Assembly: GCA_001797815.1 (NCBI GenBank)
Contig: MGQK01000016.1
Span: 7,138-18,676, forward strand
Source of the DNA: Deltaproteobacteria bacterium RBG_13_61_14
Lineage (GTDB): Bacteria; RBG-13-61-14
Direction: 5' to 3'
DNA: 11,539 bases
The position numbers were made by a program, and so were the translations under genes. Positions within the stretch are counted from its first letter, which is position 1. Each line of letters starts with the position of its first letter. Shown one piece after another: positions 2,589-11,539 of this stretch. The notes below the pieces were generated by a model, which made no database searches, was not told the DNA's origin, and was given only the letters and a program-made list of their open reading frames with translations.

Positions 2589-4544
2589 ATGACCAAAGCG
2601 AAAAAAACCGTGAAACCCGGCCCGCCGAAAAAGAGAATTCCCGTCAAGATTATGGATACCACGCTGCGGGACGGCCACCAGTCGCTCTGGGCGACCCGCA
2701 TGCGCACCGAGGACATGCTCCCCGTCCTCCAAGAGATGGATGAGGTGGGCTTTCACGCCCTGGAAGTCTGGGGCGGCGCCACCTTCGATGTCACCCACCG
2801 TTACCTGAACGAGGACCCCTGGCAACGCCTGGCCGCTCTGAAAAAAGGCTTGAAGAAAACCCCGCTGCAAATGCTGCTCCGGGGCCAGAACCTGGTCGGC
2901 TACCGCAACTATGCCGACGACGTGGTCCGCGCCTTTGTCCTCAAAGCCGCACAGACCGGCATTGATATCTTCCGGGTCTTCGATGCGCTCAACGACGAGC
3001 GCAATTTTGAGACTTCCTTTGCCGCGATCCGGGAAGCCGGCAAGCAGATCCAGGGAGCCATCTGCTATTCCCTGACCGAGCGCCGGATGGGCGGGCCGGT
3101 CTATCACCTCGACTATTACCTGAACAAGGCCAAAGTCATCGAGGAGATGGGTGCGGACAGCCTGTGCATCAAGGACATGGCCGGTCTGCTCGCCCCCTTG
3201 GATGCCTACGAGCTGATCCAAGCCCTGAAAGCGACGGTCCACATCCCGATCCAACTCCACACTCACTACACCAGCGGCATGGGTTCCATGACCTATCTGA
3301 AAGCCATCGAAGCCGGGGTGGACGTTGTGGATACCGCGCTGGCGTCCTTCGCGCTCCGCTCCTCCCAACCCGCCATCGAACCCATCCTGGTCGCCCTCGA
3401 AGGCAGCGAGCGCGACCCGGGCCTGGACCTCGGCCATCTCTTCAAGCTCGGCAATTATCTCGAATCTATTTCTCCCAAATACCGTGATTTTATGAACCCC
3501 ACCCAGATGTCGGTTATTGATATTAACGTGCTCCTCCACCAGGTGCCGGGCGGCATGCTCTCCAACCTGGTCTCCCAGCTCAAAGAGGCCGGCGCCCTCG
3601 ACCGCATCCAGGAGGTTTACGCGGAACTGCCTCGCACCCGCAAGGATCTGGGCTACCCGCCCCTGGTCACGCCCACCAGCCAGATCGTGGGCATCCAGGC
3701 CGTGCAGAACGTGCTCTTCGGCCGCTACCAGATGATCTCGGCCCAGGTCAAAGACTATGCCTACGGCCTCTACGGCCGGCCGCCGGTGCCCATGGACCAG
3801 GAAGTGCAAAAACTTTGTCTCAAAGGCTACGAGCGCGGTGATAAACCTTTCACCGGCCGGCCCGGGGATATCCTGGAGCCGGAGCTAGAGAAAGCCAAAG
3901 CCGCGGTGAAAGACATCACCGCCGATCTGGGCGACGTGCTCATTTACGCGCTTTACCCCACCACCGGCATGAAATTCCTGCGCTGGAAATACGGACTGGA
4001 AGCGCCGCCTCCCTCGGTCAAGCCCAAGACCTTGGAAGAGGTGAAGCGCGAAGACGAGATGCTGAAACTCCTCAAAGACGGAAAGCTGGTGCCCAAGGAG
4101 GAAAAACCCGCGCCGCCGAAAGGGCCGGGCCTGCGGGCTTTCCATGTATTTGTGGATAACACCTATTACAACGTGGAAGTGGAAGAAGTCGGCGGCAAGC
4201 CCCGGATCGCTTCCATCTCCCACAACCCTAGTCGCGTCCAGCATTCGCCTCCTCCACCCGCCGCCGCGCCGACGGCACCGGCATCCGCGGCGCCTCCACC
4301 CGCCACCGCGGCGAGTCTATCCGGTAACGAAACCCCGCTGTGCGCGCCGATGGCGGGACTGATCATCGAGTATAAGGTCAAAGTGGGGGACCAGGTGAAG
4401 AAAGGCGACGTGGTCCTGGTCCAGGAATCCATGAAAATGCAGAACAACCTGGAAGCTCCGGCGGACGGCACCGTCGCTAAAATTCCCTTTGCCAAGGGCG
4501 CTTCGGTCTGCAAAGGCGAGGTGCTGCTGGTGATCGCGGCTTAA
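2589..4544 (+). CDS. oadA: Pyruvate carboxylase subunit B / oxaloacetate decarboxylase alpha-type carboxyltransferase
   Basis: A 651-residue biotin-dependent carboxyltransferase. The N-terminal HMGL-like TIM barrel begins with DTTLRDGHQS (Asp23-Ser32), carries the metal-site lysine in CIKDMAG (Lys195), which is carbamylated in this family, and the metal ligands HTH (His224, His226). The conserved carboxyltransferase C-terminal region follows to about residue 470, then a charged segment, a Pro/Ala linker (about 553-580) and a biotinyl domain with ESMKMQ; Lys616, 35 residues from the end, is the biotinylation site. It transfers a carboxyl group between carboxybiotin and pyruvate, as PycB or OadA, or acts as a transcarboxylase 5S-type subunit; the sequence alone does not say which. 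No biotin carboxylase or OadB/OadG is in the window. An AAGGAG site lies 8 bases before the ATG. The protein is somewhat longer than typical OadA, because of the linker. BioD at the right end supplies its cofactor. Confidence 0.9.
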   Translation: MTKAKKTVKPGPPKKRIPVKIMDTTLRDGHQSLWATRMRTEDMLPVLQEMDEVGFHALEVWGGATFDVTHRYLNEDPWQRLAALKKGLKKTPLQMLLRGQNLVGYRNYADDVVRAFVLKAAQTGIDIFRVFDALNDERNFETSFAAIREAGKQIQGAICYSLTERRMGGPVYHLDYYLNKAKVIEEMGADSLCIKDMAGLLAPLDAYELIQALKATVHIPIQLHTHYTSGMGSMTYLKAIEAGVDVVDTALASFALRSSQPAIEPILVALEGSERDPGLDLGHLFKLGNYLESISPKYRDFMNPTQMSVIDINVLLHQVPGGMLSNLVSQLKEAGALDRIQEVYAELPRTRKDLGYPPLVTPTSQIVGIQAVQNVLFGRYQMISAQVKDYAYGLYGRPPVPMDQEVQKLCLKGYERGDKPFTGRPGDILEPELEKAKAAVKDITADLGDVLIYALYPTTGMKFLRWKYGLEAPPPSVKPKTLEEVKREDEMLKLLKDGKLVPKEEKPAPPKGPGLRAFHVFVDNTYYNVEVEEVGGKPRIASISHNPSRVQHSPPPPAAAPTAPASAAPPPATAASLSGNETPLCAPMAGLIIEYKVKVGDQVKKGDVVLVQESMKMQNNLEAPADGTVAKIPFAKGASVCKGEVLLVIAA

Positions 4545-8376: not shown

Positions 8377-9597
8377 ATGGACTTCCCCAAACTCCGCGAG
8401 ATCGCCGCCATCCCCACCGAACACCAGGGCCGGAAAATGCTGCTGTTGCAAGACCCGGAGCAGATCAGCGAAGCGGTGGTGATGATCCCGCTCGAGCTGT
8501 TGCCCCTGATCCGCTTTTTCGACGGCCAGCATTCGTTCCGCGACATCCAGGCCGAGATCATGCGCTCGACCGGCGAGCTGATAGACAGCGAGCTGATCAG
8601 CAAGGTGGCGGAAGAACTGGACCAGCACCTGCTCCTGGACTCCGAGCGCTTCCAGCAACACCTCCGCGAAATCTATGAACGCTGGAACGCTTCTCCTCTC
8701 CGGCCCGCGTTTCACGCCGGCACGGCCTATCCGGCTGATCCGGAAGAACTGCGCCGCATCCTCGACGGCTACTACACTCCTCCCGACGGCCCGGGCCCGA
8801 TTGACCCGGCCCGCGCCGGCTCCGGGCTCAAGGGCATACTGGCCCCGCACATTGACGTCAAAAGCAACGGCCCTTGCTACGCCCATGCCTACAAGGCCCT
8901 GGCCCAAGGCACCGATGCCGACCTCTTCCTCATCTTCGGCACCGGCCACGCCGTGGCACAGCAGCCGCTCGTCCTCTCCGAAAAAGATTACGAGACCCCG
9001 CTCGGACTTGCCAAGACCGACCGCGACCTGGTCCAGCAGGTGTGGCGGAGCGTGCGCAACCGCTCGCTCTGTGACGACCTCCCCCACCGCAAGGAACACT
9101 CCATCGAGTTCCAGGTCATCTTCCTGCAACACGCGCTCGCCGGCCGGCGCGATTTCCGGATCGTGCCCATCCTGACCGGCTCGTTCAGTCTCTTTGCCCA
9201 GACCAACGAAAGCCCGGCCGATGATCCCGGCTTCCGCGACTGGATCGAGGCCTTACGCTCCGCACTCGCCGGCCGCAAGGCCGCCTTCATCGTGGGAGGC
9301 GATTTGGCCCACCTCGGCCCGCGCTACGGCGACCAGGAACAATACACCCAAATCCGGGAGCCGGAAATCCGGCAGGATGACGAAGAGATGCTTCAGCCCC
9401 TTCAGTCAGGCGATGGGGAAAGCTTCTTTCAGAAGATCGCGCTCATTCAGGACCGCCGCCGGATCTGCGGCCTGCCCGCGATCTACGCGGCCCTGGCCCT
9501 GTTCCAGCCGGCCAAAGGCGAGCTGCTCAAATGGTCCTGCTGGTATGACCCCTCCACCGGCTCCGCGGTCTCCTTCGCGGCCATGGCCTTTCGCTGA
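8377..9597 (+). CDS. amrB: AmmeMemoRadiSam system protein B (MEMO family) with extra N-terminal domain
   Basis: A 406-residue protein whose residues from about 115 on form a MEMO-family domain, related to extradiol dioxygenases. Landmarks are the HAGTAYPADPEELRR entry motif and the putative metal/active-site residues His158 (APHID), His191 (GTGH), His241 (HSIEFQ) and Cys364 (CGLPA), matching the three histidines and the cysteine of human MEMO1. Residues about 20-100 form a separate helical domain that resembles the small winged-helix/PqqD-like N-terminus of other bacterial AmrB proteins. In many bacteria and archaea MEMO is encoded with an AMMECR1 protein and a radical SAM enzyme; neither is visible here. 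The reaction is not established. AAGGA at 8363-8367 supports the ATG. The 17-bp gap from larA suggests one operon. Its last codons are the source of a 23-bp exact repeat found again at 10234. Confidence 0.87.
   Translation: MDFPKLREIAAIPTEHQGRKMLLLQDPEQISEAVVMIPLELLPLIRFFDGQHSFRDIQAEIMRSTGELIDSELISKVAEELDQHLLLDSERFQQHLREIYERWNASPLRPAFHAGTAYPADPEELRRILDGYYTPPDGPGPIDPARAGSGLKGILAPHIDVKSNGPCYAHAYKALAQGTDADLFLIFGTGHAVAQQPLVLSEKDYETPLGLAKTDRDLVQQVWRSVRNRSLCDDLPHRKEHSIEFQVIFLQHALAGRRDFRIVPILTGSFSLFAQTNESPADDPGFRDWIEALRSALAGRKAAFIVGGDLAHLGPRYGDQEQYTQIREPEIRQDDEEMLQPLQSGDGESFFQKIALIQDRRRICGLPAIYAALALFQPAKGELLKWSCWYDPSTGSAVSFAAMAFR
9563..9585 (+). repeat. 23-bp direct repeat, left copy (in the amrB 3' end)
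   Basis: Identical over 23 bases to 10234-10256 (begins CCGCGGTCTCC, ends GCCATG), 671 bp apart in the same orientation. It codes for the end of AmrB (AVSFAAM). The two copies flank hicBA like an attachment-site pair or recombination remnant. Confidence 0.85.
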
Positions 9598-9773: not shown

Positions 9774-9995
9774 ATGCGCCGAATTTTTACCGCGGTGGTG
9801 GAAAAGGAGGGCGATGGCTATGTGGCCTTATGCCCGGAGCTGGATGTGGTCAGCCAGGGCCGCACGGTGGAGGAAGCCAGGGCCAATCTCAGCGAGGCGG
9901 TCCAGTTGTTTCTCGAATGCGCCAATCCCCAGGAAATCGAAGAGCGTCTGCATTCCGAGGTGTATGTGACTCCCTTCGAGGTCGCGGTTGGTTAA
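9774..9995 (+). CDS. hicB: HicB-family antitoxin (short form)
   Basis: A 73-residue HicB antitoxin with the RNase H-like fold that binds and blocks the HicA toxin. Typical features are the N-terminal strand FTAVVEKEGDGYVALCPELD, the turn VSQGRTVEEA and the helix ANLSEAVQLFLE. No C-terminal helix-turn-helix or ribbon-helix-helix DNA-binding domain follows, so it belongs to the short HicB type. The start is set by AAGGAGG at 9757-9763, spaced 10 bases from ATG 9774; GTG 9771, one codon upstream and spaced 7, is equally possible. The antitoxin gene comes first and overlaps hicA by 8 bases. The pair is flanked by a 23-bp direct repeat, which suggests acquisition as a unit. Confidence 0.88.
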   Translation: MRRIFTAVVEKEGDGYVALCPELDVVSQGRTVEEARANLSEAVQLFLECANPQEIEERLHSEVYVTPFEVAVG

Positions 9996-10209
9996 GCTCA
10001 AAGTCCTTTCCGGCCGCGAAGTCTGCGCCATTTTGCAAAAACACGGATTTTTCGAAGTCCGTCGTCACGGCAGTCATATCGTTATGCAGAAACAATTGCC
10101 GGCTTCCACGATCACCGTTCCGGTCCCGGATCACCAGGAGCTGCGACGAGGCACTCTCCAGGGAATCATTCGCCAATCCCAAATTCCCCGAGCCGAGTTC
10201 GAATCCTAG
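9988..10209 (+). CDS. hicA: HicA-family toxin (mRNA interferase)
   Basis: A 73-residue HicA toxin, a small dsRBD-like ribonuclease that cleaves mRNA and stops translation until neutralised by HicB. The family pattern is clear: SGREVCAILQKHGFFEVRRHGSH with the catalytic His30 in G-S-H, then the strand ITVPVPDHQELRRGTLQGIIRQ. The only usable start in the frame after an upstream in-frame stop (9967-9969) is TTG at 9988; GAGG at 9978-9981 lies 6 bases before it. The TTG overlaps the hicB stop (TTGGTTAA), which points to translational coupling. The low-efficiency start would keep toxin yield below antitoxin yield. All motif residues are intact, so it is probably functional. Confidence 0.88.
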   Translation: MVKLKVLSGREVCAILQKHGFFEVRRHGSHIVMQKQLPASTITVPVPDHQELRRGTLQGIIRQSQIPRAEFES

Positions 10210-10211
10210 AA

Positions 10212-10268
10212 ACTCTCGATTCCCCCACTGGCGCCGCGGTCTCCTTCGCGGCCATGTCGTTCTCCGGT
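10212..10268 (+). pseudogene. Remnant of an amrB-like 3' end
   Basis: Read from 10212, this encodes a short stretch (SPTGAAVSFAAMSF) that aligns without gaps to the last 18 residues of the AmrB encoded upstream, with 11 of 18 identical. Differences include synonymous changes (GAC/GAT, ACC/ACT), so it derives from a once-coding, diverged copy and not from a recent local duplication alone. The frame runs on into unrelated AT-rich sequence to a stop at 10344-10346. There is no start or upstream body of the gene; hicA ends 2 bases before. Confidence 0.6.
10234..10256 (+). repeat. 23-bp direct repeat, right copy
   Basis: Exact copy of 9563-9585, lying 25 bases after the hicA stop inside the amrB-like remnant. 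Together the copies bracket the hicBA module. Confidence 0.85.
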
Positions 10269-10327
10269 AAAGAAATGTTTGATTTGGCGTTTATACCGAA
10301 TAGAATTGTCAGGCTGGCCCAATTAAA

Positions 10328-10702
10328 TCACTTAATCATTAGTTGAAAGAGTTCAGGAGCCTTAAGATAATAAGTAAGCGTTAAAAGCCCCATCATCGCA
10401 ATAACAATATAATTTACAATCAATGCTCGCCGGTTCAATTCTTTTCTAAATACTATCAGTAAAATTTGAATAAGCATCAGCAGAATGAGGACGAGCAACT
10501 TTGCGCCGGGTGTTGCCCAAATCGGATCGAAATGCCAAGAGCCAACTCCATCTGTATAATACATTGGAATATATTCTGCCTGAAAAATCAATAACGCCTG
10601 AGTGGTAAAAGAAAGAAATAATAAGCCATTGTAATAAAATTTCTTTAGGTTTGGTGATGGGCTGCCCCGGTTGTCTCCCTTCATAGCCGCAGAGGATTTC
10701 AT
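10328..10702 (-). CDS. AT-rich three-helix membrane protein in the toxin position after an antitoxin
   Basis: A 124-residue protein of no family I recognise. It has three predicted membrane helices: about 22-42 (FYYNGLLFLSFTTQALLIFQ), 68-85 (KLLVLILLMLIQILLIVF) and 94-113 (LIVNYIVIAMMGLLTLTYYL). The positive clusters NLKK before helix 1 and RKELNRR between helices 2 and 3 suggest a cytoplasmic N-terminus; an aromatic, acidic loop (43-67) would face outward. Its ATG overlaps the stop of the upstream antitoxin gene as ATGA, implying coupled translation. Base composition is striking: 41 G/C in 120 bases (10381-10500), far below its neighbours, except for the first 40 or so bases of the gene, which are GC-rich like the surroundings. 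It may be a horizontally acquired cargo or a membrane-active toxin; function is unknown. A second in-frame ATG (codon 7) is an alternative start. Confidence 0.72.
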   Translation of the reverse strand: MKSSAAMKGDNRGSPSPNLKKFYYNGLLFLSFTTQALLIFQAEYIPMYYTDGVGSWHFDPIWATPGAKLLVLILLMLIQILLIVFRKELNRRALIVNYIVIAMMGLLTLTYYLKAPELFQLMIK

Positions 10703-10917
10703 GATCCCCGCACCCGCTCCTTGATTTCCTCCCAGGGAGAACCTTCGTCCGGGTTCCGATGATACGCTTCCAACCTCCGGTCCAGCTCTTCGCGTTGGGC
10801 CTCGGTCAAGGGAATCGCCTCCGGGACCGCGGCAATGCTGTCCCAGATGTCCTCCACCAGGAGAATGCGCTCCGCCACCGGCAACTTGAGAATCTCCGCC
10901 AAATTAATTTTGCTCAT
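10699..10917 (-). CDS. Addiction-module antitoxin of the Unstab_antitox (TIGR02574-like) family
   Basis: A 72-residue protein with the hallmark pattern of small antitoxins usually paired with RelE/ParE toxins: EILKLPVAERILLVEDIWDSI, then PLTEAQREELDRRL, then a C-terminal NPDEGSPWEEIKERV block. The ATG at 10917-10915 is preceded by GGAGAGGGGG; an upstream in-frame ATG at 10956 would add 13 residues but lacks homology and a ribosome site. Antitoxins of this family fold on and inhibit the cognate toxin and often repress their own promoter. Here no RelE/ParE gene follows. Instead its TGA overlaps the start of a membrane protein gene (ATGA). A promoter and tandem operator-like repeats lie upstream in the gap to bioD. 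Confidence 0.85.
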   Translation of the reverse strand: MSKINLAEILKLPVAERILLVEDIWDSIAAVPEAIPLTEAQREELDRRLEAYHRNPDEGSPWEEIKERVRGS

Positions 10918-10981
10918 GCTACACCCCCTCTCCGGGCATTTCCCATCCCAAACCATCTACTTCCCGGCAGGCTGAATCAAG

Positions 10982-11000
10982 TACCTATAACTACCTATAA
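10982..11000 (-). repeat. Tandem 9-bp repeat at the antitoxin promoter (operator candidate)
   Basis: TACCTATAA occurs twice (10982-10990 and 10992-11000) with a one-base spacer, a 10-bp period or one helical turn. On the minus strand it reads TTATAGGTA twice and sits just downstream of the -10 box, where a repressor such as the antitoxin complex could block transcription. Confidence 0.5.
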
Positions 11001-11043: not shown

Positions 11044-11539
11044 TCAGGAGATGTAACTCAAGGCCGCGTATTTCGAGAACATTTCCACCCGGCGCACCAG
11101 ATCTTCTCGATGGTCGCGGAAGATGGCGGCCAAGCCAGCCTCCCGCTCCGTTTCCTGGAAATAGGGTATTTCTACCAGCCACTCCACTTGACCATGCTGC
11201 CGAATCGCCGCGGCATTGGCGGCGGCAGAGGCATCCGGCTCAGCGGAGAGCTGGTTCAAGACCACGCCCAGGACCGGCACCTTGCGACTCTGGAGCGCTT
11301 CCAGGGAGAGAAGAGTATGGTTGATCGCGCCCAGGCGGTTGGGCGCGACCAGGAGCACGGGCAGGACAAAATTGGGGAGCAGGTCGGCGAAGAGGAAGTT
11401 GTCGTTGATCGGGACCAGAAGCCCGCCGGCGCTTTCCACCACGATCAGGTCATAACGGCCGGCAAAGAAATCGAAAGTCTGGAAAATGCGGTCAATGGTG
11501 ATGATCACGCCTTCCTGCTTCGCGGCCTCGGCCGGGGCG
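11044..11539 (-). CDS. bioD: Dethiobiotin synthetase, C-terminal part
   Basis: About 164 C-terminal residues of BioD, which closes the ureido ring of biotin: ATP-dependent carboxylation of 7,8-diaminononanoate to dethiobiotin in the cytoplasm. Recognisable blocks are the start of the visible part (PAEAAKQEG, as in the usual SP..AA..EG), YDLIVVESAGGLLVPIND, where most BioD have EGAGG, and LGVVLNQ with the nucleotide-binding Asn. The coding frame continues past the right edge, so the P-loop and the true start lie outside; a GTG at 11508 inside the frame is not the start. The gene ends with TGA at 11046-11044, 126 bp before the antitoxin gene on the same strand. Other bio genes probably lie to the right. 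Biotin is the prosthetic group of the carboxyltransferase encoded in this window. Confidence 0.88.
   Translation of the reverse strand, partial: APAEAAKQEGVIITIDRIFQTFDFFAGRYDLIVVESAGGLLVPINDNFLFADLLPNFVLPVLLVAPNRLGAINHTLLSLEALQSRKVPVLGVVLNQLSAEPDASAAANAAAIRQHGQVEWLVEIPYFQETEREAGLAAIFRDHREDLVRRVEMFSKYAALSYIS

Follow-up and report, generated by a model that had tools for sequence, protein, structure and literature searches.

An Unstab_antitox antitoxin gene that has probably lost its ParE toxin and overlaps an AT-rich membrane-protein frame

The stretch of DNA analysed here, referred to as the window, comprises 11,539 nucleotides of Deltaproteobacteria bacterium RBG_13_61_14, and the antitoxin gene at its centre of interest is very probably an orphan: its toxin appears to have been lost, and an unrelated gene, AT-rich and coding for a small membrane protein, appears to have been joined in frame at the position where the toxin formerly started. 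We regard the locus as most probably the decayed form of a toxin-antitoxin pair and not as a new type. The original prediction had offered two explanations of the arrangement, namely that an AT-rich gene had replaced the lost toxin, or that the membrane protein was a membrane-targeting toxin belonging to a new type of toxin-antitoxin system. The first is supported by a genome of the same order (G002), in which an antitoxin 76% identical to that of the window is followed by ParE at the same ATGA junction. The second is disfavoured, as no relative of the membrane protein could be detected and the protein does not occur at any of 61 other antitoxin loci.

The antitoxin gene, its junction and its neighbours

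The antitoxin gene (10699-10917, minus strand) encodes 72 amino acids and is a member of the Unstab_antitox family, its full-domain score exceeding the curated cut-offs of both PF09720 (E 8.4e-22, 77.4 bits against a Pfam cut-off of 23.3) and TIGR02574 (E 3.8e-27, 94 bits against an NCBIfam cut-off of 31.9). An SD-like AGGGGG lies 5' of its ATG, and its stop codon, TGA, lies within the ATGA (10699-10702, minus strand) that opens the 124-aa membrane-protein frame, so that the overlap and the coordinates originally given for it are correct. This overlap is the usual start of the ParE/RelE toxin, as indicated by 30 of the 62 antitoxin loci surveyed below and by the point at which the alignment with G002 ends. 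Two regulatory features that had been attributed to the locus fared less well: a consensus scan finds no promoter on the minus strand, and the operator-like repeats amount to a single 10-bp tandem repeat (10979-10998).

The claim that no RelE/ParE gene is present stands, since a six-frame search reveals neither a ParE/RelE frame nor a remnant of one anywhere in the window, and the sequence past the ATGA retains at most a possible MK of ParE. Two features of the Unstab_antitox-ParE/RelE module can be scored at this locus, of which the ATGA overlap is present and the downstream toxin gene is absent. Because no ParE remnant survives in the window, the argument for replacement has to be drawn from relatives.

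Close comparison extends to three genomes in the phylum. In G002, ParE starts at the same ATGA and lies upstream of a tgt-like gene; this toxin matches the Pfam ParE_toxin family at E 7.5e-4, just below the cut-off. When the DNA of the window is aligned with that of G002, the similarity runs through the antitoxin and ends at ATGAA. A second genome of the same order (G001) has an antitoxin 75.7% identical to that of the window, with no toxin at the junction. Both genomes carry the module at a site different from that of the window and lacking the bioD and hicBA flanks, so the ancestral state of the window's own site can be reconstructed only indirectly. A RelE/ParE toxin at exactly this place in close relatives had been named beforehand as the sign of a chance replacement, and that is in substance what G002 provides, with ParE at the same ATGA but at another genomic site. 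The window's own genome contains a second PF09720 gene (contig C28), which is adjoined by ParE (E 1.1e-7). From this pair and the G002 pair, both of them at other sites, it follows that the Unstab_antitox-ParE module is ordinary in the lineage.

The orphan antitoxin of G001 (L086) is followed by frames of 64 aa (3123-3317) and 84 aa (2882-3136). The 84-aa frame looks RelE-like by eye, and there is possibly a second, different toxin-antitoxin pair beside the orphan antitoxin in that genome.

Upstream of the antitoxin lies bioD (dethiobiotin synthase; 11044-11538, minus strand; AAA_26 E 5.5e-29, TIGR00347 E 2.3e-24), which is cut by the edge of the window. Downstream, on the plus strand, a hicB-like gene (9774-9995, with a sub-threshold HicB-like match) and hicA (9988-10209; HicA_toxin E 2.9e-17) overlap in their frames; this is a separate neighbouring toxin-antitoxin module on the opposite strand, outside the antitoxin operon. 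It is bracketed by a 35-bp direct repeat whose copies, 91% identical, lie at 9551-9585 and 10222-10256. Of these, the first forms the 3' end of a gene that is MEMO-like on our own reading rather than by family search (...STGSAVSFAAMAFR), and the second, after hicA, reads as a matching tail (SPTGAAVSFAAMSF...), as if the hicBA cassette had come to lie inside a duplicated gene end. A third MEMO-like tail, on contig C104, was rejected because no MEMO gene is found there.

What follows this antitoxin in other loci

The survey of downstream genes comprised 62 antitoxin loci, whose members were recognised by an in-house profile and were taken from genome contigs and from PF09720 matches in relatives. 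The ParE/RelE profile was built from the downstream frames of antitoxin loci, and since these are a subset of the same loci, the following counts lean towards the recognition of toxins: a full-length ParE/RelE gene starts exactly at an ATGA/GTGA overlap in 30 loci and at a different spacing in 13, is broken or short in 9, and is absent from 10, the window among them. Apart from the window, then, a full toxin lies downstream in 43 of 61 loci (30 at the exact overlap) and is missing or broken in 18. A Pfam check of two of the toxins, which is independent of the in-house profile, points in both cases to PF05016, in one of them just below the cut-off. Annotated plasmid records agree: among three, a RelE/ParE toxin is present in two, and no toxin is listed in the third. 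The window accordingly shows what defines an orphan antitoxin, a gene kept without its toxin and having relatives with a toxin at the same junction (30 of the 61 loci; compare the alignment with G002).

Several loci show that the overlap outlives the toxin. In two of them (L058 and L074) only what appear to be the first toxin codons are left after the ATGA (MNPVII... and MKYNIIVR...), and in a third (L039) the ATGA start leads into an unrelated, lipoprotein-like frame of 399 aa. An antitoxin gene followed by an ATGA overlap is therefore not enough to indicate a new toxin, because the overlap is a legacy of the lost ParE and gives an appearance of coupling to whatever gene comes to lie in frame. 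Given that the toxin is missing or broken in 18 of the 61 other loci, assignments of function by association with this antitoxin require a test of conservation.

Two genomes belonging to one family (G036 and G181; loci L039 and L045) have an unrelated, lipoprotein-like gene in the position of ParE, either overlapped by the Unstab_antitox gene or directly adjoining it. This layout bears on the proposal that the membrane-protein gene is a co-regulated non-toxin gene captured by the antitoxin promoter, with the antitoxin acting as its repressor. The operon arrangement is the same, translational coupling is possible, and the two lipoprotein-like cases are parallels; but the consensus for a minus-strand promoter is not found, and the membrane-protein frame, having no relatives, provides no conservation data, so that recruitment is judged improbable.

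In the orphan-antitoxin reading, the ancestor of this antitoxin would have belonged to a module of the ordinary Unstab_antitox-ParE/RelE kind, with the toxin gene starting at the ATGA overlap. Recombination just past the first toxin codons would have removed the toxin and brought in a stretch of unrelated, AT-rich DNA bearing a small membrane-protein gene, which fell in frame with the old ATG by a chance of one in three. The antitoxin probably continues to regulate its own promoter or is able to neutralise a related ParE, for instance the one in the C28 pair, while the membrane-protein frame, if expressed, would have its translation coupled to that of the antitoxin and would serve an unrelated role. 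From the comparison of sequences we infer both the replacement event and the absence of a functional pairing.

The 124-aa frame and the search for its relatives

The frame that follows the junction (10328-10702, minus strand) is AT-rich and encodes an orphan membrane protein of 124 aa. Its first ~20 codons (10643-10702; MKSSAAMKGDNRGSPSP...) are GC-rich and are followed by a sharp shift to AT-rich sequence, which marks the probable join. The GC content is ~28-46% over roughly 10250-10700, whereas most coding sequence on either side has ~54-69%; the AT-rich block begins just past the ATGA junction, with the shift in composition falling within ~20 codons. No convincing mobile-element repeats are found at the block.

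The frame exceeds the length expected by chance: of 5000 dinucleotide shuffles, a single one leaves it open, and 21 contain any frame of at least 115 codons. Since it is intact and unlikely to arise by chance, it may be a working gene under the antitoxin promoter, a point that weighs against the orphan-antitoxin reading. These results, together with a codon-position GC of 0.43/0.33/0.39, which is compatible with coding, count against the view that it is no gene at all, but either part of some larger membrane protein or a stretch of AT-rich foreign DNA that happens to be open. That view draws on the lack of any homologue and on the two candidate starts, the ATG of the junction and a second in-frame ATG at codon 7, neither of which has a good ribosome-binding site visible by eye. 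It is unlikely, though the least so of the alternatives considered, and it is compatible with the orphan-antitoxin reading.

The description of the product as a three-helix membrane protein holds in part. Hydropathy gives two strong hydrophobic helices (65-88 and 91-113), and a single-sequence AF2 model of low confidence (pLDDT 68, pTM 0.35) gives three long ones (17-43, 65-84 and 91-114), of which the first is the weaker and lies under the hydropathy threshold.

That the protein belongs to no recognisable family was confirmed, there being no trustworthy match in Pfam, NCBIfam, PADLOC, PHROGs or the PDB. No Pfam or PADLOC family matches at E <=1 and no PDB sequence at E <=10; the NCBIfam and PHROG matches are sub-threshold and of partial coverage only (PHROG 31504 at E 0.021). 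A fold search with the AF2 model gives no match at E <1, and the library searches reveal no sequence link to small membrane toxins. A tblastn search of 72,556 plasmid and 50,697 phage records returns no match, scans of GTDB and viral contigs by sequence pattern return no real one, and 290 relatives and three further phylum sets yield chance matches only. These searches reach close to moderate relatives, and a distant family could escape them.

Among the candidates set aside are two viral contigs (L005 and L006), in which terminase-like frames share the motif PIWATPGAK, a series of weak tblastn or HMMER matches in the 290 relatives (L007-L019), and two matches in the phylum of G120 (L088 and L089). 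All were judged to be due to chance, being short segments, mostly in much longer or interrupted frames, and falling on hydrophobic or single-motif stretches.

The tabulation of neighbours that had been proposed for homologues of the 124-aa protein consequently has no entries from the searched genomes, plasmids, phages and viral contigs, and the pairing with the antitoxin occurs at 0 of the 61 other loci. Since the membrane protein has no detectable relatives, there is no conserved pairing. This bears directly on the suggestion of a true two-gene module, in which the 124-aa protein would act on the membrane as a toxin and the Unstab_antitox protein would neutralise it. The ATGA overlap, an intact frame longer than chance, and a small hydrophobic product like the type I and type V membrane toxins speak for such a module, but the overlap coincides with the junction at which ParE ordinarily starts and carries no independent weight, the protein is without any homologue found, and the pairing is absent from the other antitoxin loci. 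The module is therefore considered highly improbable. The same very low probability attaches to a switch of partner, by which the Unstab_antitox protein would now neutralise, as a type II module, a membrane-acting toxin lying in frame at the old ParE start.

Comparison with known systems

Type I and type V membrane toxins are small hydrophobic proteins, and the likeness of the 124-aa protein to Hok, TisB and GhoT extends only to its being small and hydrophobic. To our knowledge, the known toxins of this kind are neutralised by antisense RNA or by an RNase, and not by a type II protein antitoxin. If the membrane protein were in fact toxic, the system would be an unusual type II system, and nothing found points that way. 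Pairs of antitoxin-like and membrane-protein genes were left out of the survey of Makarova et al. (2009; PMC2701414), as membrane components were not then known from any type II system, which likewise speaks against a two-gene module.

With the type II module of Unstab_antitox and ParE/RelE (PF05016), the window shares the antitoxin gene, whose score is far above the cut-off, and the exact ATGA overlap; it differs in having neither ParE/RelE nor a remnant of it, and an unrelated AT-rich membrane-protein frame in its place. A survey of Klebsiella reports 2253 orphan antitoxins, 49% of which lie near a coding sequence without a known toxin domain, and its authors note that such sequences might include new toxins (PMC7192599); because of this caveat, a novel toxin is still accorded a very small probability here. 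The window likewise has a toxin-less antitoxin beside a coding sequence with no known toxin domain, and differs from the Klebsiella cases in that this sequence happens to share the frame of the former toxin start and has a hydrophobic product. On this comparison, the locus fits among the orphan antitoxins of the Klebsiella type.
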